A stretch of DNA of 64,000 nt from Polytrichum commune (taxonomy: Eukaryota > Streptophyta > Polytrichopsida > Polytrichales > Polytrichaceae). This document shows positions 8,055 through 64,000 of the stretch, in pieces. The notes under the pieces are model-generated. The model saw nothing but the letters and a program-made list of their open reading frames with translations. It was not told the origin of the DNA and did no database searches. Position numbers and translations under genes: made by a program. Numbering within the stretch: position 1 is the stretch's first letter; every line of letters begins with the position of its first letter. The DNA lies in assembly GCA_950295325.1 (NCBI GenBank), contig OX485805.1:52290758-52354757 (forward strand), in the 5' to 3' direction.

Positions 8055-8415
8055 CATGCCCATCAGCAACGACCTATGCCCACCCATGCCCACCCATAGC
8101 ATGACATGTGCGCACCCATGCCCACCCATGCCCACACATAGCATGACATGTGCCCACCCATGCCCACCCATGCTATTCAAATTGCGCCCATGTATTCAAA
8201 AATTATGTAATGTGTATTGTGTAATTGTGTAATTGTGTAATTATGCCCCGCCCATGCCCGCCCATGCCCGCCCATGCCCGCCCATGCCCGCCCATGCCCG
8301 CCCATGAACAATAATAGCGCAGCCATGCCCACCCATGCCCGCCCATGAACAATAATATTGCACCCATGCCCACCCAAAACCCATGGGCATGGGTGGGTAT
8401 GGGCATGGGCATGGG
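8055..8415. repeat. Minisatellite of a 10-bp unit (cgcccatgcc and variants)
   Basis: Six or so near-perfect tandem units lie at about 8245-8306, with variant units (cacccatgcc) on both sides. The last part, about 8380-8425, carries the same unit in inverted orientation (gggcatgggt). Open frames on the minus strand here are repeat artefacts rich in Gly, His, Trp and Met. Confidence 0.9.
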
Positions 8416-8861
8416 TATGGGCGCCCGATGTAGGGCTCTGGTAGGCATCTAACAAATATTTGCATCATACCTTCACACGTACTGGGCAAGCGCCAACTTT
8501 TTTTTAGTATTTTTTTGCTTTAGTTTTTGCAAACAACGGATTCCACCTCCTTGTAATTTCAATGCAAATATGCCTTTCATCAAGAGTATGACCTCTCCAT
8601 TCATCGGTTGCATCCAACCCTTAAATGATGGTCCAAACAAAGGCACAAGGGTCGGTTGAACATGTATTTCAATTAGGTTGGTCCCACTAAGGCCAACATT
8701 TTTTCTCCAAACAAAGGCACCCTCCTCCCTATGGAACTTGAGTTCATGCCAAATTGTGGTTCACCTCGGCAAGGATTTTAGTTCTTGTGTTCCACACAAG
8801 TTTCTCATCTATAAGCGTACGAGGATCAACGACATGAGCCAACCCGCCATCCCAAGGTTAG

Positions 8862-40762: not shown

Positions 40763-41921
40763 TGTCGTGATGTAAATACGTACACTATATAGATGTGTAC
40801 GTATTTAATATTGCATTGTGAATCTTGGTCTTGGAGAAAAATAATAAAGAATAGAAGTAGATTACTTTTTTTATTTACTCATAGTTTATTTTAGTTATCA
40901 TTACCTAAGGATAGAAGTGGATAGAAGTTGCTTACCTTTATGTTTACTCATAGTTACTTTTAGTTACCTTTACCAAATGATAGAAATAGATTACCTTTTT
41001 ATTTACTCATAGTTTATTTTTGTCTTTTAGTTATCTTGAGTTACTTTGGACCAATGGGTGATTAGAAGCCATGTGATGAGGATAAGAGAGAACTTTGTCT
41101 CTCGCATGGATAGGGAGAGGTGGTGAAGGAAAGATGTTATGTGATTATTGAGGGAGAGAAGTTGTGGAGAGAGAGAGAAGTGGATTGGAAGCTCACGGTG
41201 TGAGTTGTTTTTGAGAAGAATATGAAATAAAATACGAGGGATTTGTAATTCATGAGAGATCTCACTTGTTGTTTTGGAAGTTAGCAATCAAGATTTGTGT
41301 TTGTTTGAGTGGAGGGAAGTCTGTTGGTTCTTAAAAGAAGAGCTGAGACTTCGACCAACCATAGAAGACGGACAGATTAAAGAATTGAAGGCTTCAAGAC
41401 TCGAATGTGTGGTTGTTTGTGGCACGTTGTCTTTTTCTTGTGTGTGTGATTCCAAGCCGGTTTTGGAGGCTAGTTGCATTTCATTTCTGCATCGTAATTT
41501 GTTTCCTGTGTGACAACGAAGTGGGATTAATCACCCACAAGGTTGTTTGTGACAACGAAGTGGGATTAATCACCCACAAGGTTGTTTTCTGTCGTTCCCA
41601 CTGGTGAGGCGCGATTGCTGGTCACCGTGGGTTTGAAAGTTTAGGAGCCAATATTTCGGACGTCAGCTCGTGTTCTGACGTCCCGTTTTACCCGTCCGAA
41701 GCTGTGGTTTCTTATCACACTACCCTTACCCTTTATCCATATAGAGCCACAACAGGATAGGTCGACGGGAAAGAGGTTGAAGATTAGAAGAAATTGAAGA
41801 AATTGAAGACTAGAAGACCGGAAGATTCGATTGAAGATCAGAAGATTCGACGGGTCTGATAAAATCTAGTTGCAGCCAGAAGCCCAACGCTTTCCCAAGG
41901 CGGAACCCTCTCTACCCGACA
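40763..41921 (+). repeat. 5' LTR of the Ty3/gypsy element
   Basis: Starts tgtcgtgatgtaaat and ends ctctctacccgaca. It contains a 36-bp direct duplication (acaacgaagtgggatta and what follows) near 41513-41585. It matches the 3' LTR essentially base for base apart from one extra 9-bp unit near 41790. Confidence 0.96.
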
Positions 41922-48118: not shown

Positions 48119-49268
48119 TGTCGTGATGTAAATACGTACACTATATAGATGTGTACGTATTTAATATTGCATTGTGAATCTTGGTCTTGGAGAAAAATAA
48201 TAAAGAATAGAAGTAGATTACTTTTTTTATTTACTCATAGTTTATTTTAGTTATCATTACCTAAGGATAGAAGTGGATAGAAGTTGCTTACCTTTATGTT
48301 TACTCATAGTTACTTTTAGTTACCTTTACCAAATGATAGAAATAGATTACCTTTTTATTTACTCATAGTTTATTTTTGTCTTTTAGTTATCTTGAGTTAC
48401 TTTGGACCAATGGGTGATTAGAAGCCATGTGATGAGGATAAGAGAGAACTTTGTCTCTCGCATGGATAGGGAGAGGTGGTGAAGGAAAGATGTTATGTGA
48501 TTATTGAGGGAGAGAAGTTGTGGAGAGAGAGAGAAGTGGATTGGAAGCTCACGGTGTGAGTTGTTTTTGAGAAGAATATGAAATAAAATACGAGGGATTT
48601 GTAATTCATGAGAGATCTCACTTGTTGTTTTGGAAGTTAGCAATCAAGATTTGTGTTTGTTTGAGTGGAGGGAAGTCTGTTGGTTCTTAAAAGAAGAGCT
48701 GAGACTTCGACCAACCATAGAAGACGGACAGATTAAAGAATTGAAGGCTTCAAGACTCGAATGTGTGGTTGTTTGTGGCACGTTGTCTTTTTCTTGTGTG
48801 TGTGATTCCAAGCCGGTTTTGGAGGCTAGTTGCATTTCATTTCTGCATCGTAATTTGTTTCCTGTGTGACAACGAAGTGGGATTAATCACCCACAAGGTT
48901 GTTTGTGACAACGAAGTGGGATTAATCACCCACAAGGTTGTTTTCTGTCGTTCCCACTGGTGAGGCGCGATTGCTGGTCACCGTGGGTTTGAAAGTTTAG
49001 GAGCCAATATTTCGGACGTCAGCTCGTGTTCTGACGTCCCGTTTTACCCGTCCGAAGCTGTGGTTTCTTATCACACTACCCTTACCCTTTATCCATATAG
49101 AGCCACAACAGGATAGGTCGACGGGAAAGAGGTTGAAGATTAGAAGAAATTGAAGACTAGAAGACCGGAAGATTCGATTGAAGATCAGAAGATTCGACGG
49201 GTCTGATAAAATCTAGTTGCAGCCAGAAGCCCAACGCTTTCCCAAGGCGGAACCCTCTCTACCCGACA
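48119..49268 (+). repeat. 3' LTR of the Ty3/gypsy element
   Basis: Same sequence as the 5' LTR with one 9-bp unit fewer. A purine-rich tract lies directly upstream. Confidence 0.96.
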
Positions 49269-50744: not shown

Positions 50745-51060
50745 TTGTCATTTCAAGCTTCATAATCGAGGTTGACATGCCCAAATTATAGGAGGTCAAA
50801 GTCAATATTCTCTTTCATTTCAAATGGTCACGTGGGCCCTCTTGATTATGTTAATTGTGAAATCTGGATGTGTGTCTATATACTCTACATAGCTCGAAGA
50901 ATCGCAAATTACTGATCCTTTGTCCAAGCACATAGTCGAATCTTATCACAAGCCTTACCATAGACCATTCACATGTAGGTCCTTGAATAAGAGGAGTGAC
51001 CATTTACCTTTACGTATACTTGTTTCATTACACCATTTATGGTCGATTGTGTCACATGCG
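50745..51060. repeat. Dispersed repeat family A, copy 6 (most diverged)
   Basis: It reads aaatggtcacgtgggccctc, ttgattatgttaattgtgaa and gtccaagcacatagtcgaat in the same order as the 34.1-kb copy. The LINE seems to begin just to its right. Confidence 0.45.
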
Positions 51061-51107
51061 TATTAGTGTCACTTATCTGGACCTTCAAGGATTTGGTGAT
51101 GTGTAAC

Positions 51108-51912
51108 GGGGGAGGGGATGAGAGAGAGCTGCTGAGAGCTCCGTAATTCCTGGTGAGGTGAGCGACGAAAGAGGTAGCCACTGGAGACTTATGTGTGTGC
51201 TGCTAAGGAGCTGGCCTTGCAGTGACCCCGCGCCCATTAGGAACTAGACGGTCAGAGTGTTTGAAGAGGTGTTTGGCAGTGTTGAGGGGTACTGTGTAAG
51301 TTCAGTTTTAGATCTGGTGATTTAGGTGTGTGGAAATGTCAGTTAAATCTTAAGGGGAGAGCACTCTGAAGAGCTGGGGCTTTGTTTGGTTGTGATTACC
51401 GCATTTCGCCACTGATATTTGCTTAGATCTGAAACTGTACGCATCACATTGGAGAGAGGAAACAAGCACCAAGGACTCAAACATACTGATACTCTAAATC
51501 GCCACACTGAGCCAGGAATACACTTTTCAGAATAGACAGAGAATCACATAGGAGGAGCCGAAGGCTCCTTCTTTCCTTCATACACATTGTTATTACATTG
51601 TCCTTGCTTCTTACACATAGCATAGATGCATGTCAACTAGGTCTAGAACCACATCTTCAGCACAAAGGAGATCTGCAGGTGGAGGGTTCAGCCACATGTG
51701 GAGGAGAACCATACAACACCAACATACGGAGCAGTGAAGGGGTCGTAGCGGAAGATCGAGGTGGCGGTAAAAAAGGAGGGGATCCAGCAAAACAACACTG
51801 CCCATATCTACATCAAAGATCTACATCTAAGAGCACAGACACACCCGGACTTCACCCCAAAGAAGCAGATCAGGAAGAGAGAGGCAAGGGCACATTAAGA
51901 ACTCATAGCAAA
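51108..51912 (+). promoter_or_regulatory. Probable LINE 5' leader
   Basis: This GC-richer, non-repetitive stretch lies between the family A repeat and the monomer array. The left boundary is inferred from the change of sequence character near acgggggaggggatg. A short ATG-initiated ORF begins at 51629 and ends near 51737, upstream of ORF1. Confidence 0.4.
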
Positions 51913-52575
51913 CACCGCCTCCGAACTACATCGCCGAATTATCATCACCGACCCAACAAGAAAAGCCGGATTGAAGAAAAAGACTGTGAAGTGCTACACC
52001 AGATCCCCTACGAAACTAACCCTGCAGGTCTACACAACAATCACCGCCTCCGAACTACATCGCCGAATTATCACCATCGACCCAGCAAGAGAAGTCGGAT
52101 TGAAGAAAACTGCGCAACGCTACATCAGATCCCCTACGAAACTAACCCTGCAGGTTCACATAGCAATCACCACCTCCGAACTACATCGCCGAACCATCAA
52201 CATCGACCCAGCAAGAGAAGCCGGATTAAAGAAAATTGTGAGTAAGAATGTGCAGCGCTACACCACATCCCCTACGTAACTAACCCTACAGGTCTACATA
52301 ACAAACACCGCCTCCGAACCACATCGCCGAACTATCATCACCGACCCAACAAGAGAAGCCGGATTGAAGAGAGCTGTGAAGAAGACTGTGCAGTGCTACA
52401 CCAGATCCCCTTCGAAACTAACCCTGCAGGTCTACACAACATACACCGCCTCCAAACTACATCGCCGAACTATCATCATCGACCCAGCAAGAGAAGCTGT
52501 ATTGAAGAAAATTGTGAAGAAGACTGTGCAGTGCTACACCAGATCCCCTACGAAACTAACCCTGCAGGTCTAACT
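51913..52575 (+). repeat. Five tandem monomers of 126-138 bp before ORF1
   Basis: Units begin at 51913, 52042, 52168, 52306 and 52444 with caccgcctccgaactacatc and include catcgacccagcaagag, ccggattgaag, ctacaccagatcccctacga and aaccctgcaggt. The periods are 129, 126, 138 and 138 bp, all multiples of three. The frame that continues into ORF1 reads LRTTSPNYHHRPSKRSRIEE and LHQIPYETNPAGL in every unit and has one stop (TAA at 52243-52245). No in-frame ATG precedes 52612, so the array could equally be untranslated promoter monomers. Confidence 0.92.
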
Positions 52576-52611
52576 AACTACTACCGCCCCCGCAACACAG
52601 TGCAGATCCAG

Positions 52612-54410
52612 ATGACCGCAGCAAAGGCCTCCCAACGAGACAGCAACATCGGAGCTGGAAGAGAGATGATCCCTAAGGCCCTAGCTAAGGTCTTTGGGGA
52701 GGAGGAAGACACCATGGAGATAGACTCCCCATCACTGAGCCTAAAAAAGCTATTGGCCGAGAAAGCTAAGGCGAATTCAAGAGCAGTAGCCAGCGGGAAG
52801 AGATCCAGGGACCGGGCCGGAACGTCCCCTCCTTCGAACACCCAGCAAGTGATCTCCCCCCGCATTGGGACCCATGCCACAGAGCCCTCACCGAACCAAA
52901 AACTCAAGCTTTGGTTAGGCTTTGAATCCATGGAAAACCTTGCCATAGAGCAAGGGATTGAAGAGTTGTTTTCAGATGAAACCATTGCTGATAGAATTAC
53001 AAGGGGCATCCCTCGTAAGGAAGCCAAGGAACTTGAAAACGTAAGTATTTCCTACCCAAGAGTGCCACAAATATTGTATCCAAGTGAGAGAAGTGATGGA
53101 CTCCCGGGGCAGCACCTTAACCTCACTCAACTCCCATCTGAAATTGAAATTGACCCCATCTCTCGCATGTCTCTAGATTTCCAAATTGCCATTCATTTTC
53201 AGCTCCCTAACAACCCCTTATTCCACAACCACATCAAAGAGCTTGTTAAAGAAAGGCTAAATGACATGCACATTCCACTTGGTACTAACCTCATTGAACC
53301 TATCTCAGTTTTATGCATGAGTATTAAGAGAGGAGGGGTCAAGGGAGTGTGGGCTGGGATAGTTAAACTTCACCTCCTTAACCCCCAAACAGATGGAGTA
53401 GCCCTACTCACGGGTCTTAGACCCTTCATCTTGAACCTCACTCCAATGGTGGAAGCCTTGGCAAGGTATGCAAGTCATACCACTCCATTGCTAGGAGCAA
53501 CAATCTTTCTATCAAAATCTCAAATGATGCATTGATTGGATTGACATCTCATGCTCTCTTTCTTGATGTCCTAGAAAATAGCTTTAGAAGAGGTCACAAT
53601 TTTGAGATTGTTGAAGTTCAAAAGAGCACCACTAACAATCATGCCTATCTTGTTGCCCCTACCCCCCTTCAAGCCAAAAAAATCCAAACTCTTCAAGTTA
53701 CTACCCACCACCAAATCCTTGAAGGTCAAGTGAAGAACGGCCCCTCTCTCACATTGGAGCGAAAGGCAAGGAAAGAGGCCCTTATTCTAACCTTTTACAA
53801 CCTCCCAATATTGATGAATATTGATGACACCTCATTAGAAATTTGCAAAATACTAGGAACTAAGAATGTTGTTTCTATATGGTTCCACAAGCAAGACGGT
53901 TTGAGGCATAACGGTAGTGCCAACGTGGAATGCCTTAACCCCTTTGTGTATAGGAAATTTGTAGGGAAAGAGGTAAAAATCGGAACTTACCATGTGGAAA
54001 TTACCCCACACCGCCAGAGTATTGAAGGAATTGACAAACCCCCCAAGGAATTACTAATCAAATTTGGATTTGAAGATACCAATACGTGTTTGGTAAACAC
54101 TATTGAAGCCATTCAAAACCAAACTCAATGGGAGGAAAGTGCTACAAAAGGGGACGTTCTTACCGTCATGAAGGAAGCAATAGAGGAAGGTAACAAAAAA
54201 CTCAAACTTGAGCTCCACAAAGACATGAAGGAGTTAAAAAATGATATAGTGAGAGAAGCACACATATATGTGGATGAAATAAATTAAAAATTAAAAAAGA
54301 AAATACTAGACATCCAAGGTACTTTAACCTTAGCACTTACCGGAATGCAACAAATCACGGGATTGGTAAACCCAAACCTCATGCTTAAAGACCAACCAAA
54401 TGTGGAGTGA
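52612..54410 (+). pseudogene. LINE ORF1 (nucleic-acid-binding protein)
   Basis: The start is the first in-frame ATG (MTAAKASQRDSNIGAG). The first segment to 53535 reads EEEDTMEIDSPSLSLKKLL, KLKLWLGFESMENLAIEQG, DFQIAIHFQLPNNPLF and IKRGGVKGVWAGIVKLHLL. A frameshift near 53490-53515 moves the reading to SHALFLDVLENSF, then ALILTFYNLPILMNI and GSANVECLNPFVYRKFVG, which look like the two beta-strand signatures of an RRM-like fold. A charged helix follows (EAIEEGNKKLKLELHKDMKE), and a TAA at 54285-54287 interrupts a frame that goes on to NVE at 54410. Typical LINE ORF1 proteins coat the element RNA. About 600 residues in total, one frameshift and one stop. Confidence 0.75.
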
Positions 54411-54929
54411 CCACAAACCGCCAAGAAAAACAAAAGTATTTACTACAATACTACCCTAGATACATAGAAGTATATAGATATAGTAGAATACAAATACATA
54501 CTAGTATAAACATACTATACCTTAATATCATACAAAGCAACATACGATGTCAAACAACGTATGAGGAATACAAACATACCTCACATCTACTCCAATACGG
54601 TATACCCCAACAAACCACTCACCCAATACACATACCAAACTACAAATACCAATCATATAACAGATCGCAAACAAAATACAAAACCCGTATAAAATACAAT
54701 ATACATCCAAGTGGTAAAATACACCAACTTCACCCAAAATATAATTATCATCTTAGGCACAATCTTCATACAACAAACAACCTTCATACGAAGTACGGAA
54801 AGTACACAAAACACATACTTCATCCAACCAACTACTCCCATCCAATAAATGGACTTCATCAGAAACACATGCTTTACTCAAAACACATATCTCATCCAAA
54901 ACATAACCCGCTAAATGAGCAAGGAACCC

Positions 54930-56445
54930 TGTGAGGCCAAACCCCCCACCCTTAAGCGTCCGTAGTCCGAGTAGTGGGTTTGGGCTCACATTCCTCCGCG
55001 GTATTGGATTTGGACTTGGATGAGTCCATAGTGCAAGGTTCACCCTTCAAGTGGTCTTGGATTTAACTAGCTCCTTCATAAACCCAGCTCCTTCATAAAC
55101 CCAGCTTCTTAGCTTCTAACTAAACAAACCCAGCTCCTTCATAAACCCAGGTCCTTCATAAACCCAGCTCTTTACTTTCTAACTAAACAAACCATGCTCC
55201 TTCATAAACCCAGCTCCTTCATAAACCCACAACTTTGTAGTTGTAATCCCCAACTACCTCACTAATTATTCAAGCCCTTAACTAATCTTCCTACCTAATT
55301 TCCCTAATTCTACTAACAACCCCTTTCTAATCACACAATTCTTCTCTAATCCTAAAATCCTAAAATCCTAGAGAGGAGAGGGGGAGAGAGAATTTCCTAA
55401 CTTCACTAAGACTAACTAATCCACACAAGTATATTTTTGCACTCATCACAACATCAAGTGCTCAACTCTTAAACATGGAACTTGCAACCACGTGTATTCA
55501 AAACATGAACTTTAAGTACCACAAATTGGAATCATGAATTAACTTTAAAATCCTTCACGTCAACACTAATTCTACCAAGAGGTCAAGCCCTCTTCAAGGC
55601 TAACAAGCCTTGGCTCTCAAACTAAAAACTAAGCACACACATGTGCTCCAATATGGCTTCCCACACCCACACTTATAACTCGTGGGGTGCCTTGGAGCAC
55701 AAAGGAAAGAGAGGATGAGTGAGGGAAGAATGAGGGATTATATAGTAAGCTTGAGGGGGTGAGCACCCTCAAGGCTCACGATAAGCCCTTGAGATTTCCT
55801 CCTACTTAGTAGGCGCCAATCCTATCTTCTAAGCCTTCCTCCCTCAAATGATCAACAAGGATCCTAATTCGAACATTTAACTAGCCTTGGCTTTCTACCT
55901 ACCACACTTTACCAAACTTGGGATGCTTCAACCCAAACTTAGCCTCCTTCGCTTTCCGCCGCCATAACTTTCTCCCCTTACTTTTCCAAATCGTCGCTCA
56001 CCACTTAATTCAAACCACGATGCTTAACTCGTGATTTGATTGGTGCTTTGAGAATTTGCTTATCCTCCACCTTGCATTCTTCCTTGGGCCTTCCCCATTA
56101 AGTGGCCATGATGAGGTGGTCCACTTGTGCGCTCCATGTGATCCTCCATTCATCCCAATTCGAATGCACTTGCCTCTTGAGTCACTTTGGTTGTCTCCAT
56201 CCATTTGTACTAGCCTACTCACTAACTACTCAATCCAAGTTCTCCTTACCTATCCTCATTCACTCAAATCCTTCCGAAGGTAAAAACACGATAACAACTC
56301 ACATCCTAGCCTCTTACAACATGGTACTTCTAAGACTAACATTTCACTCTTTTTATATTTTTGTGAAGTAACATGCTACTTCAAAGTGCATCAACTAACG
56401 TTTCAAGGGTCTAAGACTAAATGTGGGCACCCTTTTGGGCTCACA
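54930..56445 (-). mobile_element. Solo-LTR-like insertion A in the LINE
   Basis: The 1.5-kb segment begins tgtgagg and ends ctcaca (TG…CA). aaccc directly outside both ends (54925-54929 and 56446-56450) is a 5-bp target duplication. Later LINE repeat units read straight across this site (aaggaacctatcc), which gives an empty site. The interior is non-coding and includes a 17-bp minisatellite (aacccagctccttcata) at about 55068-55240. It matches insertion B over much of its length. It is a fossil LTR without internal region. Confidence 0.75.
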
Positions 56446-56559
56446 AACCCATCCTAACCTAAAGACAAACCAACAAAATAAACTTCATCCTAAACACAAC
56501 GCACACCCAAAACCTAAACTTTATCTCCACTCAAAACCCAACCCCCACTCAAAGTACAA

Positions 56560-59120
56560 ACAATACCCAAAAAACAAAATGGCCTCGGCCTACCGGCCTC
56601 GCCACAAAACTAACCACAAATACCACCTCATTACTTGGAAACCTACCCCAATAACAAATCAAATACCTAAATACTATGCAATCTCACACCCCTTACCCAA
56701 ACAACAAGAAAGCATAATACCCGCCCTACACCACATTCTTCCTACAACAAAACAAGCACGCATTAAAAATCATAAATCATAAATGACAAAACCAAAAACA
56801 AATAACCTATATAGATACTACCCCATTACCTCAAGTACATCAAGTAATAAAAAACTTACAAATAACCCAAACTACACTAACCACACACACAACAACAATC
56901 ACCCAAAACACACTCTCCGAACAAAACACACTACACAACCAAATTATACTTCCCATCCAAAACACAAAATACACCAGCTTCTCTCTCAATATAGGTACTT
57001 CCCAAGAAATGGACCTCATCCTAAATCCAAACCGCATCTAAAACATAGTCTACAACCAAAACAAAAACCACACCCAAAACTAAATCCCCCCCTCACACCT
57101 AAACATTCAAGTAACATTACACACACCCGGAAATACGGAAAGTTCCCAAAACACTTACTACATCCAACAAACTACATTCATCCAAGACACGGACCTCACC
57201 CAAAGCACATACTTTACTCAAAACACATATCCCATCCAAAACATAATCCACACCATAAACAAAGAACCTATCCTAACCTAAAGACATACCAACAAAATAA
57301 ATTACATCCTAAACACAAACCCCACCCAAAACCCATACCCTACCCCCACTCACAACCCAACCCCCACTCAAAGTACAAACAATACTCAACAAACAAAATG
57401 ACCTCGGCCTACCGGCCGCGCCACAAAACCAACCGAAAATACCACCTCACTAATTGGGAACCTACCCCAATAACAAATCAAATACCTAATTTATACTATG
57501 CGAACTCACACCCCTTAACCAAACAACAAGAAAACACAATACCCGCCCTACATCACATTTCTTCTACAACAAAACTAGCACTCATTAAATATCTAAAACC
57601 CAAAACAATTAACCTATACAGATACTACCCCTCTACCTCAAGTACATCAAATATAAATAAACCAAACTACACTAACCACCCACACAACAACAACCACCCA
57701 AAACATACTCTCCGAACAAAATACACCACACATCCAAATTATACCTCTCATCCAAAACACAAAATACACTGGCTTCACTCACAATATAGGAACTTCCCAA
57801 GAAACGAACTTCATCCTATATCCAAACCGCATAGTCTACATCCAAAACAAAAAAACACACCCAAAACTAAATCCCCCCTCACATCTAAACAATCAAGTAA
57901 CATTACACACACCCCAAAATACGGAAAGTACCCAAAACATATACCAAATCCAACGAACTACTTTCATCCAAGACACAAATTTCATCCAAAGTACGTAAGT
58001 TACTCAAAACACAAAATATATTCAAAACATAACCCACACCATGAACAAGGAACCTATCCTAACCTAAAGATATACCAACAAAATAAATTACATACTAAAC
58101 ACAAACTCCACCCAAAACCCATACTTTACCCCCACTCACAACCCAACCCCCACGTAAAATACAAACAATGCCCAACAAACAAAATGGCCTCGGCCTACCG
58201 GCCTCGCCACAAAACTAACCGAAAATACCACCTTACTAATTGGAAACCTACCTTAATGACAAATCAAACACCCAAATACTACGCGAACTCACACCCCCTA
58301 CCCAAACAACAAGAAAACATAATACCCGCCCTACACCACATTTCTTCTACAACAAAACTAACTAACAACTACCCAAAATATAATCCCCGAACAAAATACA
58401 CTACACATCCAAATTTTACCTCTCATCCAAAACTCAAAATACACCGGCTTCTATCACAATATAAGTACTCACCAAGAAATGGACTTCATCCTAAATCTAA
58501 ACCACACCCAAAACATAGTCTACATCCAAAACAAAAAACACAACCAAAAATTAACCCCCCCCCCCCCCCCTCACACCTAAACTACCAAGCAACATTACAC
58601 ACACCCTACCCAACCCGATCACCACAACTAAAACCGTATGCATGAAAAACCTAAATACAAACAAAACACGCCCTTTACCCAACCAATTAGGAAATATAAC
58701 ACCCGCCCTACAACACGATACCTACTCAAAACAAAAAATACCCCGGCCCCACCCATACAAGTCTCATCCAAGATATAGTCCTCACCCAAAGCACAATCTC
58801 CATCCACGGGGAAAGCTCCATCCAAATTATAGAGTTCATCTAAAACACAAACTTCATCCAAAAACCAAAATATATTCAAAACACAAATACCAACCAATGT
58901 ATAGTTCTCATCCAAAACAAGAAACCCAATCTAACTCAAAATCTCACAAGCTTCATCTTACAAACAACTTGCATCCTAACCCCACACCCCACCCCCACTC
59001 AAAACACCACGCACACCCTAAATACAAACCCCACCAAAAAATCAACTATCATTACTCAAAATATAATTCCTACCCAATAAACAAAACGGCCTCGGCCTAT
59101 CGGCCTCGCCATACAAACAA
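56560..59120 (+). repeat. Four units of an approximately 0.8-kb coding repeat in LINE ORF2
   Basis: The sharpest marker is a GC-rich island, GGCCTCGGCCTACCGGCCT, at about 56581, 57400 (ga-variant start), 58186 and 59088. Spacings are about 819, 786 and 902 bp. Between markers the units share caatatag-tacttccc, ttacacacaccc-aaaatacggaaa, tactcaaaacacat and cctaacctaaagacatacc. Confidence 0.85.
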
Positions 59121-59799
59121 CGTCACATACCACCTTATAAACAAATGGAAACCTAACTCAGTAACAAACTCAATACCTACAAATAATACAACGTCACACT
59201 TCTCACCCACACTAGTAGAAAAAATCATACCCGCTATGCCCAACCTCTTCACTACAACCAAATTCACACTTATGATATATCTAAAAATAAATATGAGGAA
59301 ACCAAAAACACTTCAATTCTACGGATACTACTTCATTAATAAACTAGATCTACTACAATGCGTAACATTGAACTCAACCCTGGACCAATGCCTGATATCT
59401 TACGTACACACCCTGCTACAAAAAAAAAAAAAATCCAACACATATTTTATTCCTAATACTATAAAACTTCAACCTGAATACCAATACATAGCGAATACAT
59501 TCGCCTCCATACTAAAACACACACACCCACTACACCCCCAGGCAATCACTACATACCCACATCTATACCAATATATCCAAACACAAAGCCAATCACCACC
59601 AACCCATATGCTATACGCTCTAATCATTACCATCCACCCCTCAATAGACACATGCAATAACATACTAGCCCAACCCCAAACCTACCACTTTAATAACATA
59701 TGGACCAACACATTAATCATTAGATTAGCTAACCTCACCAACCCCCCGAGCGACACATACTGACACCACATCCCTACACAATATTTATAAAAAACAATC

Positions 59800-60810
59800 A
59801 AAATATAATACTTCCTCAAAACTCAATACACACAAAAATATATGAATACATCCACAACCAAGTAACCACACCCACATCAATCATCCTCAAGAAAGAATTT
59901 CCTTTCCTCCCAAACCAATTGATAACCGAAACACTCAGATGTCTAGAAAACATTAACGAATACTCACACCCACCTCGACTCCCAGCCGCTCCCACACCAA
60001 TCATAAGAATCAACACCAACACCGAACACGAAACAAACATAATAACATGGAATGCGTCATTACTCAACACATCATTATCAAACTTACAAAACCTAATAAA
60101 TAACTCTCTAAACAACACAGCAATCATACATATCCAAGAAACCAAACTCACTGCAAACAAATCTACAAAATATATACAAAACCTATTTCCAGAATATAAA
60201 CTCATCTTTAACAACACACATGCACTCACAAGGTGCATTCAACAAAGAATGCCCTACACCCCTGGAAGAGGCGGTCTACTCACACTTATGCACAATAAAT
60301 ATGCATTCCCTGGAAATATCACCAAAATTCCAACACCAGCAAACATCTCACCGTATCTACAAATAATAAAAATAAATAACCATCCACAAATACCTTGGCT
60401 AATCATACACATGTACATGCCTACACACTTAGAAGACACATGTCTCATCCCACACCTTAAGAACGAAATCACCAACCAAATCACTATACACAATAATCAT
60501 ACATACACATTATGCGGTGACTTTAACCGAGACATTGCACTTAGGGGTAGACAAAATAACAACACTAACACCCCCCACAAGAAGAAGACTTTCAATGGAA
60601 AAACTTCACTACATCCCTCAACCTTGAATATATTCCAACCAACACTAGTCTCTCTAGACAAGGAGGCTATAACTACACATCAACAAGCCTAATAGATGGC
60701 TTCTACATTCACTCCCCAGACAAAAGCAAATTCATCTCCACTACAAACACAAACATGAATCTAAATTCAAACCATTATCCAGTCATATTACACATCCCGC
60801 GCAACACACT
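59800..60810 (+). pseudogene. LINE AP-type endonuclease domain
   Basis: The frame opens at about 59790, then reads IITWNASLLNTS (motif I), AIIHIQETKLT with the catalytic Glu, WLIIHMYMPTH and YTLCGDFNRD (the GDFN motif). After a frameshift near 60590 it continues as NYTSTSLIDGFYIHS and LNSNHYPVILHI. The order matches the exonuclease-endonuclease-phosphatase fold that nicks the target DNA in APE-type LINEs. The last motif, usually SDH, reads SNH here. One frameshift inside the domain. Confidence 0.8.
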
Positions 60811-61633
60811 TACAGCCAGATATCTACCCCCTACAAACACCTCACCAACTAGAATCCTAAACCCGATACTACCAGAAAACCTAGAAAAATTCAACATAAT
60901 ATTCTTTGAAGAAAACACTACACAACTAAAAATACTTACCATACTACTAGAAAATTACCAACACTTAACATTTGATCAATGGCAAGAAGTCTGTACATCA
61001 TTGGATTATATTATAAAAAAAATCTCAAAAACAATTGAAAAAATCTGCAAAGCAGACTCATTACCCAACCTTACAAACAGAACATCACAACAAGGTGGTT
61101 TTCTACCATGTAAACTAGCTAGAGAATGGAAAAGACACCTCAACACATATCACTTCATCAGAAAAATCATATACATAGCACAACATGACCCACACTGGCA
61201 AGCGCACCCCATTCTAAACGATATCTGAAATCACCAACACGTCAACATCCCGCACCCACCCTCTACAACAACATTTCATGCTGAATGGATTGACACCATA
61301 GCAGTCATCGTAAAAACTACAAATAAAGAAGCCAGGAAAATCACCACAAAATACACCAAAGACTACATTCTAAAAGCCGTATCAACATACCGCCAAATGT
61401 ATGAAAAAAACCCAAAAAAAATAAACCGTAGAGTCTTCAAAAACACTGAAACCTCACCTCTTGATTCCATCATTGATAGACAAAATAATATACTAACTAA
61501 CCCTGAAGACATTGTATCAGAAATTCGCAACAATCTATCAGTAACCGCCCAACAGTCCCCAGATGCCACCATCAAAATACACACCCATTACACTGCACAT
61601 GTGGAGTCAGACAATACCTATGGCACGATTTAG
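60755..61633 (+). pseudogene. LINE ORF2 linker between endonuclease and RT
   Basis: Frames 60755-61228 and 61397-61633 hold helical, Lys/Glu-containing sequence: FDQWQEVCTSLDYIIKKISK, LAREWKRHLNTYHFIRK and EIRNNLSVTAQQSP. This is the position and style of the linker that precedes the RT in LINE ORF2 proteins. It contains a stop after LNDI and a frame change before the RT core. Confidence 0.65.
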
Positions 61634-61639
61634 AAGGAT

Positions 61640-64000
61640 ACACAATTGACAAACGAGGCCAACCCCAAATTCCCTTACAAACATACTTTGATCAAGAAAC
61701 CTACGACTTCTGTCTTAAAAACCTAAGTAATAACAAAGCCCCAGGCCCAGACAAGATTTCCAACTCAATTCTAAAAAATATGCCTCCGCGCTTTTACAAA
61801 CTATTTTTCCTATTCTTTAAGCACTGCTATAAACAAAAATAAATTCCCGCATCAAGGAAAACTAATCTAACAGTTTTATTATATAAAAAAGATAACTCAT
61901 CACAACTAACAAATTACAGACCTTGTCACCAAAAGTACTCTACCCCTCGATTTCGTCCTAGCCCGAGTGGAATAGTATTGATGACACTTAGCAAACTCCT
62001 TTCTTAATAACTCAATGTATCATTCCAATATGCCTTTGGAATATACACAACGTTAATGACTTATGATTTAACCCCCTAGGCTACATCCAGAACAAATTTC
62101 AGAATAGTGTAATTTTCCCATTACTTCTCAGAATATTCTGAAATTTTATCTGTAAATAGAGAGACAAAGCAAAAAACATCTCACCAATTTGTGAGCCTAT
62201 CCCATTTTTTGTCCGACAGTTATGACCATTTTAGTGTGTCAGTCTACCCAGATTTCAGAATGTCATAACTTCCTCCGACGGGCTCCAAAGAACATTAAAT
62301 TTTGGGAGCAATCACAAAAACTAATTGTTTATGACCCCCTGAAATTTCAAATTATTTTCATTTTCTGCCAAAACGTTATGGCCTTTTTAGTCTGCAACTC
62401 TTGAAAACACTTCAGAATGATATATCTCCTTCTCATCTACTCGGAGTGACTTGAAATTTGTACCACAACTAGGAAACCTAAGAACAAGGCATCCCTCAAA
62501 ATTTCATGCTTTTCCAAGCCTCTTTCCAGGAGTTATGCCCATTTCAACTCGAAAATGTAGGCTAAGTTCAGAATGTCATAACTGCTGCTCCTGTACTCCA
62601 AACATCCTCAGATTTTGACCATGTTCATATAAACAAGTTGTTTACTAACCCTCTAAATTTTAACAAAGTATCTTCTTCTGCTCGGAAGTTATGCCCCTTA
62701 TAACCTAGACTATTCAAAGGACCCTCTCATTTACCAACTCGTGTTCCGGCAATGTGTCACCAAAAGTACTCCAACCTTCGATTTCCTCCTAGTCCGAGTG
62801 AAATAATTATGGTGACACTTAGCAAACACATATACCTAAGAAATATGAACTCAAGTACTACAACTTGAAGCCATAAATTATCTTAAAATTATTCACACCC
62901 AAACTAATTCTAACAAGAGGTCAAACCCTCTTCAAGGCCAACTAGCATTGGCTCCTAACTCCAAAATCATGCACACACATGTGCTCCTATCTTGTTTTCA
63001 TATACCCACACTTATAACACGTGGGGTGCCAAGGAGCACGAAACAAAGAGAGGATGAATAAGGGAAGAATGAGGGATTATATAATGAGTTTGAAGGGGTG
63101 AGCACCCTCAAGGCTCACGATAAGCCTTCGAAATCTCCTCCTACTTTGTAGGCTCTCATCTTATCTCCTAAGCCTTCCTCCCTCAAATGACCAACAAAGA
63201 TCCTAATTCCAACATTTAACTAACATTAGTTTTCTACCTACCACACTTTGCCAAGGTATGTCCTCATACTACTTGAATCCACTCCACACAAGCCTAATGC
63301 TTCAGACTTAGCTTTCCTCAAGCTTCACTCTTTTTATATTTTTGTGAATAATAAATCAACAAAACACCACTTGTAATGTTTTACAAGTGTTAACAACACA
63401 TGTGGGCATCAATTTGGGCTCACAGACCTATTGCTTTAGCTAACCCTATATATAAACTTTACACAAGTACACTAACCTCTATTTTATCAACATACGGAGA
63501 AAGATACCAAATACTACACGATAGCCAAGAAGGATTCAGAGCAGAAAGAAACACCTCCAGACAAATCCAAATACTAATTGCAGCGCTTGAAGACGCAAGA
63601 CTCATAAACCAAGATATATACATTCTTTACATTAACTTCAAAAACGCCTTTGGCTCCATTGACCACGCCAGACTCTTAGCCATAATGAAAGTCTTAGGTT
63701 ACCCCAATGACTCAATAAACCTCATAGGAAATATATACTCACAATCTTCAACCATATTCACTGGCGAACACTTCAGAAAAACCCTACCAATCCACATCCA
63801 AAGAGGTACAATACAAGGCGATACCCTTAGCCCATACTTATTCATCATATTTCTAGAATCCCTACTTAGATGGCTACAACAAGGAAACAATGGATATACT
63901 TTCGGTACGTCCAGACTCCAGAGTTTAAATCTCATCAGCAGCATATGCAGATGACCTTGCAGCAATCGCCGACAAACTAGAGACACTACAAACACAATTA
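61640..64000 (+). pseudogene. LINE reverse transcriptase domain, split by an insertion and cut by the window edge
   Basis: Before the insertion: YFDQETYDFCLKNLSNNKAP, GPDKISNSILK, a stop, then LLYKKDNSSQLTNYRP. After it (63425 onward): RPIALANPIYKLYTS, SQEGFRAERNTSRQI, ILYINFKNAFGSIDHARLL (RT block A), RGTIQGDTLSPYLFIIF (block B) and, after a frameshift near 63940, AYADDLAAIADKLE (block C, YADD). In block A the usual catalytic Asp of L(D)F is Asn (INFKNAF). One stop, one frameshift, one substitution and one 1.5-kb insertion show it is inactive. Confidence 0.88.
61924..63424 (-). mobile_element. Solo-LTR-like insertion B in the LINE RT
   Basis: The 1.5-kb segment begins tgtcacc and ends gggctcaca (TG…CA). 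gacct on both sides (61919-61923 and 63425-63429) is a 5-bp target duplication. Its right two-fifths matches insertion A: aagaggtcaa-ccctcttcaa, cacacatgtgctcc, cgtggggtgcc, gagcaccctcaaggctcacg and ctttttatatttttgtgaa. It also contains its own first 90 bp a second time near 62755. Reading from the minus strand both start TGTGAGCCCAAA. A fossil LTR without internal region. Confidence 0.72.

Follow-up and report, generated by a model that had tools for sequence, protein, structure and literature searches.

The element studied here is a long interspersed nuclear element (LINE) in a stretch of 64,000 nt of Polytrichum commune (GCA_950295325.1, OX485805.1:52,290,758-52,354,757, forward strand; the window, to which all plain positions refer). 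It belongs to a 2A-bearing LINE family in which open reading frame 2 (ORF2) probably begins with a translated leader that is kept in frame, would be entered by reinitiation at the end of ORF1 and released by a 2A (StopGo) site, and most likely carries RNA as its payload. A sequence-only reading of the window had proposed an extra basic, His-rich module ahead of the endonuclease, acquired and then amplified by this family. The best reading of the present data replaces this fused module by a 2A-released leader of which the frame is kept and the best-conserved content is nucleic acid. The copy in the window is dead, as its frame is broken before the 2A site, its ORF1 is interrupted and two solo long terminal repeats (LTRs) are inserted. 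The claim rests on other copies of the element.

These copies were collected from the genome of 408 Mb, which has seven large contigs of 42-78 Mb, with the endonuclease as probe. The search gave 40 scored matches, including the window, of 440 candidates, and 20 of the 39 others were fetched (L-numbers label loci taken from the genome, C1 and C2 two of the contigs). NAM domains were found in ~14 genes of this genome (28 exon matches), which fits a land plant; the low number suggests a bryophyte. Sixteen fetched copies were aligned with the window copy, leaving out L013, L015, L024 and L027, which are truncated or partial; the fuller copies fall into the subfamilies A (that of the window copy), B and C. 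Sixteen further loci, including other families, were drawn from the narrower 2A patterns described below. The element proved to be far larger than the segment named at first: it starts at ~51117, where the window copy, L009, L018, L022, L025 and L026 share their first base between unrelated flanks, and it continues past 64000.

Most or all of the leader region is present in 17 of the 20 fetched copies (in L015 the later part only), the remaining three, L013, L024 and L027, being truncated. The region lies between ORF1 and the endonuclease, as had been read from the window, and is not confined to one dead copy. In the window it is built from HPKxxP-like hexapeptides in units of ~0.8 kb, each with a GC-rich motif at spacings of 819, 786 and 902 bp. 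Four motif-bearing units were counted in subfamilies A and C and three in B; the count for L011 (subfamily A) was also three because its last unit escaped recognition. The distance from the ORF1 stop to the 2A site is 2,681 nt in L022, 2,663 nt in L026, 2,681 nt in L028 and 3,406 nt in L010.

One frame is open from the overlap with the ORF1 stop through three to four degenerate units to the 2A site. In L022 and L026 it continues into the endonuclease, giving uninterrupted frames of 1,195 and 1,209 codons, respectively, within the fetched DNA. Stop codons in the 2A frame between the ORF1 stop and the 2A site were counted in 10 of 16 listed copies, the other six lacking the expected stop pattern. 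None was found in the 893 codons of L022 and the 887 codons of L026, compared with ~44 in dinucleotide shuffles and 41 and 59-60 in the other two frames. L010 has a single stop (40 and 65 in the other frames, 54 in shuffles), and the other seven copies counted have 12-64, resulting from frame breaks. The nearly open plus-strand frame that had been seen in the window outside the solo LTR is thus, in L022 and L026, beyond chance, and the leader appears to be translated.

Selection on the parts of the element was compared as the ratio of nonsynonymous to synonymous changes (dN/dS) in eight chosen pairs, seven between subfamilies and one within A, with the observed changes re-placed to give neutral means. 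Purifying selection on ORF1 is strong, the ratios being 0.07-0.12 in 8/8 pairs. Low ratios were also obtained for the 2A site with its linker (0.17-0.26 in seven pairs, 0.46 in the within-A pair), and the start of the endonuclease gave 0.13-0.47, the null of two endonuclease pairs being unusable because of too few changes. In the leader, codons 203-885 gave 0.45-0.70 compared with neutral means of 0.59-0.70, and codons 1-195 gave 0.51-0.81 compared with 0.65-0.73, so that the amino-acid constraint appears weak. Fixed leader indels, with L016 left out, are multiples of three in 5/5, 11/13, 15/21, 12/17, 17/23 and 8/11 cases for the subfamily pairs, which are overlapping comparisons, and private ones in 6/37. 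In the 5' region of the element the corresponding counts are 1/14, 8/36, 8/39, 0/6, 3/16 and 4/30 for fixed and 16/41 for private indels. The weak dN/dS constraint together with the frame-keeping fixed indels indicates that frame, far more than sequence, is conserved in the leader. The dN/dS check suggested earlier for the region therefore came out intermediate, with the frame kept and the sequence nearly free.

The 2A site, GDIE[L/P]NPGP, is intact in 19 of the 20 copies, which had been fetched by endonuclease similarity and hence regardless of 2A, and its upstream context in these copies is close to LDLLxC. L022 carries NLGP in place of NPGP, and the window copy has kept the NPGP bases with a broken frame upstream. 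The core (D/G/C/N)(V/I)ExNPGP, in the form given in PMC12846837, was found in the same proportion, 19/20. A degenerate 2A pattern had 273 matches in the genome and none in the reversed control; two narrower patterns had 35 and 58, again with none in the control. All 20 fetched copies place the 2A site within a LINE, and among the matches listed for C1-C2 the endonuclease match is preceded by a 2A match at a distance of 435-437 nt in 8/8 unfetched copies. Over the 120 residues that follow the 2A site, eight family representatives are 39-89% identical to L010. L034, a distant LINE that is 35-43% identical to ten others after the 2A site, also has an intact 2A.

A profile search with PCIF1 (PF12237), for a domain found further downstream in ORF2, scored 150 matches of 697 genome candidates. 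On C1, 27 of 46 scored matches follow a same-strand 2A site at a distance of 4.0-6.3 kb; a 2A site lies within 9 kb downstream of one of the 46. Some copies have long open frames running through the 2A site, and 5 of the 150 scored matches are part of open frames spanning 2,600 codons or more, which by our estimate are long enough to reach back past it. Given the conserved 2A site between repeats and endonuclease, the repeat polypeptide should be set free during translation, the ribosome then continuing to a separate endonuclease-reverse transcriptase-PCIF1-like-RNase H protein. A leader that is a domain fused to the endonuclease was rejected because the 2A site separates the two. Of the module proposed earlier, the extra amplified coding region gained by the family has stood and its attachment to the endonuclease has not: the segment that had been extended to 59763 ends at the 2A site, and the sequence after it belongs to the next protein.

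At the other end of the leader, an alignment of the ORF1/ORF2 junction in 17 sequences showed that the TGA stop of ORF1 overlaps an NTG codon that is in frame with ORF2, as ATGA in L010 and L012, as GTGA in the window copy and the rest of A and in B, and as TTGA in C. Ribosomes that end ORF1 would reinitiate at this overlap. Other ways into ORF2 were considered. The first AUG of the B copies, at codon 203, was rejected as the sole start, since upstream of it the frame is already open and indels are frame-keeping. An AUG that precedes the ORF1 stop by five bases (54400-54410) is out of the ORF2 frame in most of the 17 sequences; the A-run after the junction varies among copies and puts the nearby AUG into this frame in L010 and L025. 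No canonical slippery heptamer for -1 frameshifting was recognised by eye.

The GC-rich motif, CTCGGCCTACCGGCCTCGCC, is a hairpin-forming sequence of 20 nt that occurs once per unit and has 275 exact copies in the genome, with none in the reversed control. A search that allowed up to 5 mismatches gave 96 instances on the sense strand of the elements, taking the window copy and the fetched loci together, upstream of the 2A site wherever the element has a recognisable one; both reverse-strand matches are in L024, which carries another element on the opposite strand. On C1, a 2A site lies within 6 kb downstream of 55 of the 68 exact motifs and upstream of none. The core of the motif is nearly invariant and most flanking columns are variable (32 instances from 12 loci). 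The frame is open from the motif to the 2A site in 39 of the 92 instances outside the window copy, and here the motif is read as SAYRPR in 35, as RPTGLxQ in three (L032, L033) and as LGLPASP in one (L039). Families with differing motif frames are 51-72% identical just after the 2A site. For the 24 exact motifs on C1 less than 400 nt from a 2A site, dead copies included, the distance modulo 3 is 1, 0 and 2 in 19, 3 and 2 cases, respectively. As the motif is near-invariant yet read in three frames, it looks conserved as nucleic acid and not as protein. In four copies, windows of 60 nt with the motif average -8.8 to -11.0 kcal/mol compared with ~-1.6 elsewhere in the leader. A leader with such an RNA motif suggests that RNA signals are hidden inside translated sequence.

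Alternatively, the leader polypeptide itself might be functional by its composition, as a basic, disordered nucleic-acid-binding chaperone of ~890-1,140 residues that is released at the 2A site and coats the element RNA. The leader frame that is kept open agrees with this, as does a slight dN/dS deficit, six of the eight pairs for codons 203-885 falling in the lowest 15% of the null and two not. Furthermore, compared with dinucleotide shuffles the L022 leader has more Lys (12.0 against 9.4%, z 3.5) and more His (10.8 against 7.4%, z 4.5), both z-scores being inflated by the repeats, and its net charge is +0.147 per residue compared with +0.103. However, composition mostly follows from an A/C-rich RNA: Lys and His stay within two standard deviations of the shuffle expectation in L043, L032 and L035 (for Lys, z is 2.5 in L047), and the RNA of the post-2A/endonuclease region is A/C-rich too. 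In this comparison the L010 leader was taken only from its last stop (307 residues). In addition, the amino-acid sequence is almost free and the best-conserved element is read in three frames, and we consider a chaperone unlikely. The Lys/His/Pro richness pointed out in the sequence-only reading is largely what an A/C-rich RNA would encode.

The leader might also be a decay-tolerant passenger, a functionless spacer that was swelled by tandem duplication beside the 2A site and is open only because upstream stops would abolish the enzyme. In the closely related L032 and L033, a unit of ~350 bp with motif and 2A site is duplicated, the two units being 76-77% identical and the upstream 2A reduced by decay to KDTETNLGP. 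This points to growth of the array by duplication of the segment beside the 2A site, with loss of the upstream 2A; in the inner units of the HPK family nothing more of the 2A than its upstream context could be recognised by eye. Differences in unit number and spacing between the subfamilies (3-4 motifs) and the weak amino-acid constraint are also compatible with a spacer. A passenger leaves unexplained, however, why the 20-nt motif is near-constant across families with a differing flanking leader, and appears improbable. A non-coding satellite inside one dead LINE copy, which the broken window copy could have suggested, was rejected as very improbable, being contradicted by the presence of the region in 17/20 fetched copies, the open frame of L022/L026 and the frame-keeping indels.

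Selection on the leader keeps the frame, the 2A site and one motif per unit, and hardly the amino acids, which argues for RNA as its most likely payload: in the HPK family, this would be a nearly unstructured A/C-rich stretch with three to four hairpins. Ribosomes that have reinitiated would translate the leader and skip the Gly-Pro bond at the 2A site, freeing the leader polypeptide and making the endonuclease-reverse transcriptase enzyme as a separate protein. The hairpins may act as a signal for packaging or cis-recognition, and the 2A would let such RNA signals sit within coding sequence, untied from the enzyme. In its sharper form, i.e., a disposable leader that is ejected by 2A, entered by termination-reinitiation and selected for a frame-independent array of RNA hairpins, this reading is put forward tentatively.

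Several observations weigh against an RNA payload in a reinitiation-entered leader. The overlapping ORF2 start codon is non-AUG in most copies and an AUG in a third frame is nearby; part of the fixed leader indels breaks the frame; and the dN/dS deficit described above indicates slight amino-acid constraint, with Lys, His and Tyr above the shuffled-RNA expectation in L022. The two unusual motif frames comprise four instances from three loci, of which L032 and L033 are closely related, and for 13 of the 68 exact motifs on C1 the next 6 kb downstream contain no 2A match. The motif was not found in the 1.5 kb read upstream of the 2A site of L034, nor in L041 and L024, both of which look truncated. 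With regard to folding, leader windows outside the motif reach minima of -7.4 to -10.0 kcal/mol, and the four window motifs have z-scores of -1.75 to -3.01. No compensatory double change was found among 34 distinct motif variants; six altered inner pairs become G-U and four break.

The features of the window copy are listed in the table.

Table. Parts of the LINE copy in the window, with positions, strand and supporting evidence
Feature	Position	Strand	Evidence
Element 5' region, with 5-copy 138-bp tandem array at 51904-52572, upstream of ORF1 ATG	51117-52611	+	Shared first base in copies; array read in window
ORF1, interrupted in window copy; TGA stop 54408-54410	52612-54410	+	dN/dS 0.07-0.12, 8 pairs
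GTGA, ORF1 stop overlapping NTG codon of ORF2 frame; proposed reinitiation site	54407-54410	+	Junction alignment, 17 sequences; start use inferred
Putatively translated leader (HPK repeats), broken by solo LTR 54930-56445	54411-59319	+	Open frame in L022/L026; frame-keeping fixed indels
GC-rich motif, unit 1	56581-56604	+	
GC-rich motif, unit 2, 2 mismatches	57400-57423	+	
GC-rich motif, unit 3	58186-58209	+	
GC-rich motif, last unit, 1 mismatch	59088-59111	+	
2A/StopGo site; NPG^P bases 59376-59387; frame broken upstream in window copy	59320-59387	+	Intact in 19/20 fetched copies
Post-2A linker and APE-like endonuclease	59388-61228	+	Exo_endo_phos E 0.0045, below Pfam cut-off
Reverse transcriptase region, split by second solo LTR 61924-63424; element runs beyond window	61229-63954	+	RVT_1 E 2.4e-17 at 63394-63951

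ORF1 gave no Pfam match over the cut-off, and a single-sequence fold prediction for part of the window ORF1 was uninformative (mean predicted local distance difference test score 35). An Rfam search of 51000-64000 gave no match. The first solo LTR is flanked by a 5-bp duplication, AACCC, at 54925-54929 and 56446-56450, and the second by GACCT; a 99% identical copy of the first adjoins another LINE copy, L015. Upstream of ORF1, the tandem array of L010 and L012 differs from the 138-bp array of the window, and the arrays in this position are possibly promoter monomers. Outside the element, the same three small tandem arrays occur twice, at 40851-41850 and 48207-49197, ~7.35 kb apart, and are perhaps a pair of LTRs. 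Minisatellites of the CCCATGCC type were found at 8072-8422.

Behind the 2A site, the apurinic/apyrimidinic endonuclease-like (APE-like) domain matched Exo_endo_phos weakly, neither of the two E-values (0.0045 and 0.0087) reaching the Pfam cut-off. The reverse transcriptase (RT) is of LINE type (RVT_1, E 1.5e-27 in L029); in the PDB it matched R2 proteins best (3.3e-29), and chain 8c8j, which we take to be human L1 ORF2p, at 4e-13. The C-terminal part of ORF2 contains an RNase H (PF00075, 4.3e-7, above cut-off), and between RT and RNase H lies a PCIF1-like domain (PF12237; L029:4119-5078) with E-values of 4.4e-10 and 9.8e-8, above cut-off. Its match to the PCIF1 structure is weak (E 0.064). 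The catalytic motif of PCIF1 is NPPF, and as HPHN stands at the aligned position in 3/3 copies read, the domain may not be a working methyltransferase. In L048:413-1204, a zinc-knuckle CX2CX9HX4C followed by RPD...IEF looks by eye like a restriction-like endonuclease; this stretch gave no Pfam match over the cut-off and no relevant PDB match.

The element is doubtful as an ordinary plant L1-type LINE, as its RT is closest to R2 proteins in the PDB; moreover, ORF2 of plant L1 elements usually opens almost directly with the endonuclease, and here leader and 2A come first. Non-LTR retrotransposon elements with 2A were reportedly described by Odon et al. in 2013. Excerpts from among the sources used for comparison here and below (PMC4981915, PMC11512398, PMC4640811, PMC3747384) record 2A-bearing LINEs in trypanosomes (L1Tc of Trypanosoma cruzi) and other species. 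Like the elements in these excerpts, the present one has a 2A-like peptide in frame with element proteins and with the core -D(V/I)ExNPGP-. Unlike them, as far as the excerpts describe them, it resides in a land plant, has a repetitive pre-2A leader of ~890-1,140 codons with a GC-rich motif in differing frames, and carries a PCIF1-like domain behind the RT.

Dualen/RandI elements, as outlined in the excerpts, combine an APE with a restriction-like endonuclease and an RNase H, and RandI is listed there for green algae. The present element resembles them in its APE-like endonuclease (a weak match), its RNase H and, by PDB rank, its R2-like RT; the similarity of the C-terminal zinc-knuckle and RPD...E stretch to theirs is by eye, with no confirmation from searches. 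Because of this last point, the element is not filed as Dualen. Dualen RT branches between the early and late LINE groups, and Dualen carries a cysteine protease; none was found among the Pfam matches of the element parts scanned. The excerpted Dualen/RandI descriptions make no mention of a 2A, a leader or a PCIF1-like domain like those of the present element. SART1 is said to be a LINE in which ORF2 is started by termination-reinitiation. The start of ORF2 at the ORF1 stop is common to both; in the present element the overlapping start codon differs in being AUG, GUG or UUG by subfamily. With PCIF1/CAPAM, the methyltransferase for cap N6,2'-O-dimethyladenosine (m6Am), the element shares PF12237, with HPHN instead of NPPF. 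A literature search, covering mostly the best rows of longer lists and not Repbase, so that a prior description is possible, gave no report of 2A in plant LINEs, of PCIF1-like domains in LINEs or of Dualen in land plants.

According to a 2026 survey (PMC12846837), 2A (StopGo) sequences function in plants, with no evidence found that plant viruses use them naturally. The element described here could be a natural source of plant 2A sequences. It could also be a case of a selfish element that uses ribosome skipping to keep RNA signals and enzyme apart; if this is true, cis-acting RNA signals would be kept in the middle of the message, untied from the enzyme. The PCIF1-like domain in the C-terminal part represents a further, unexplained capture by this element.

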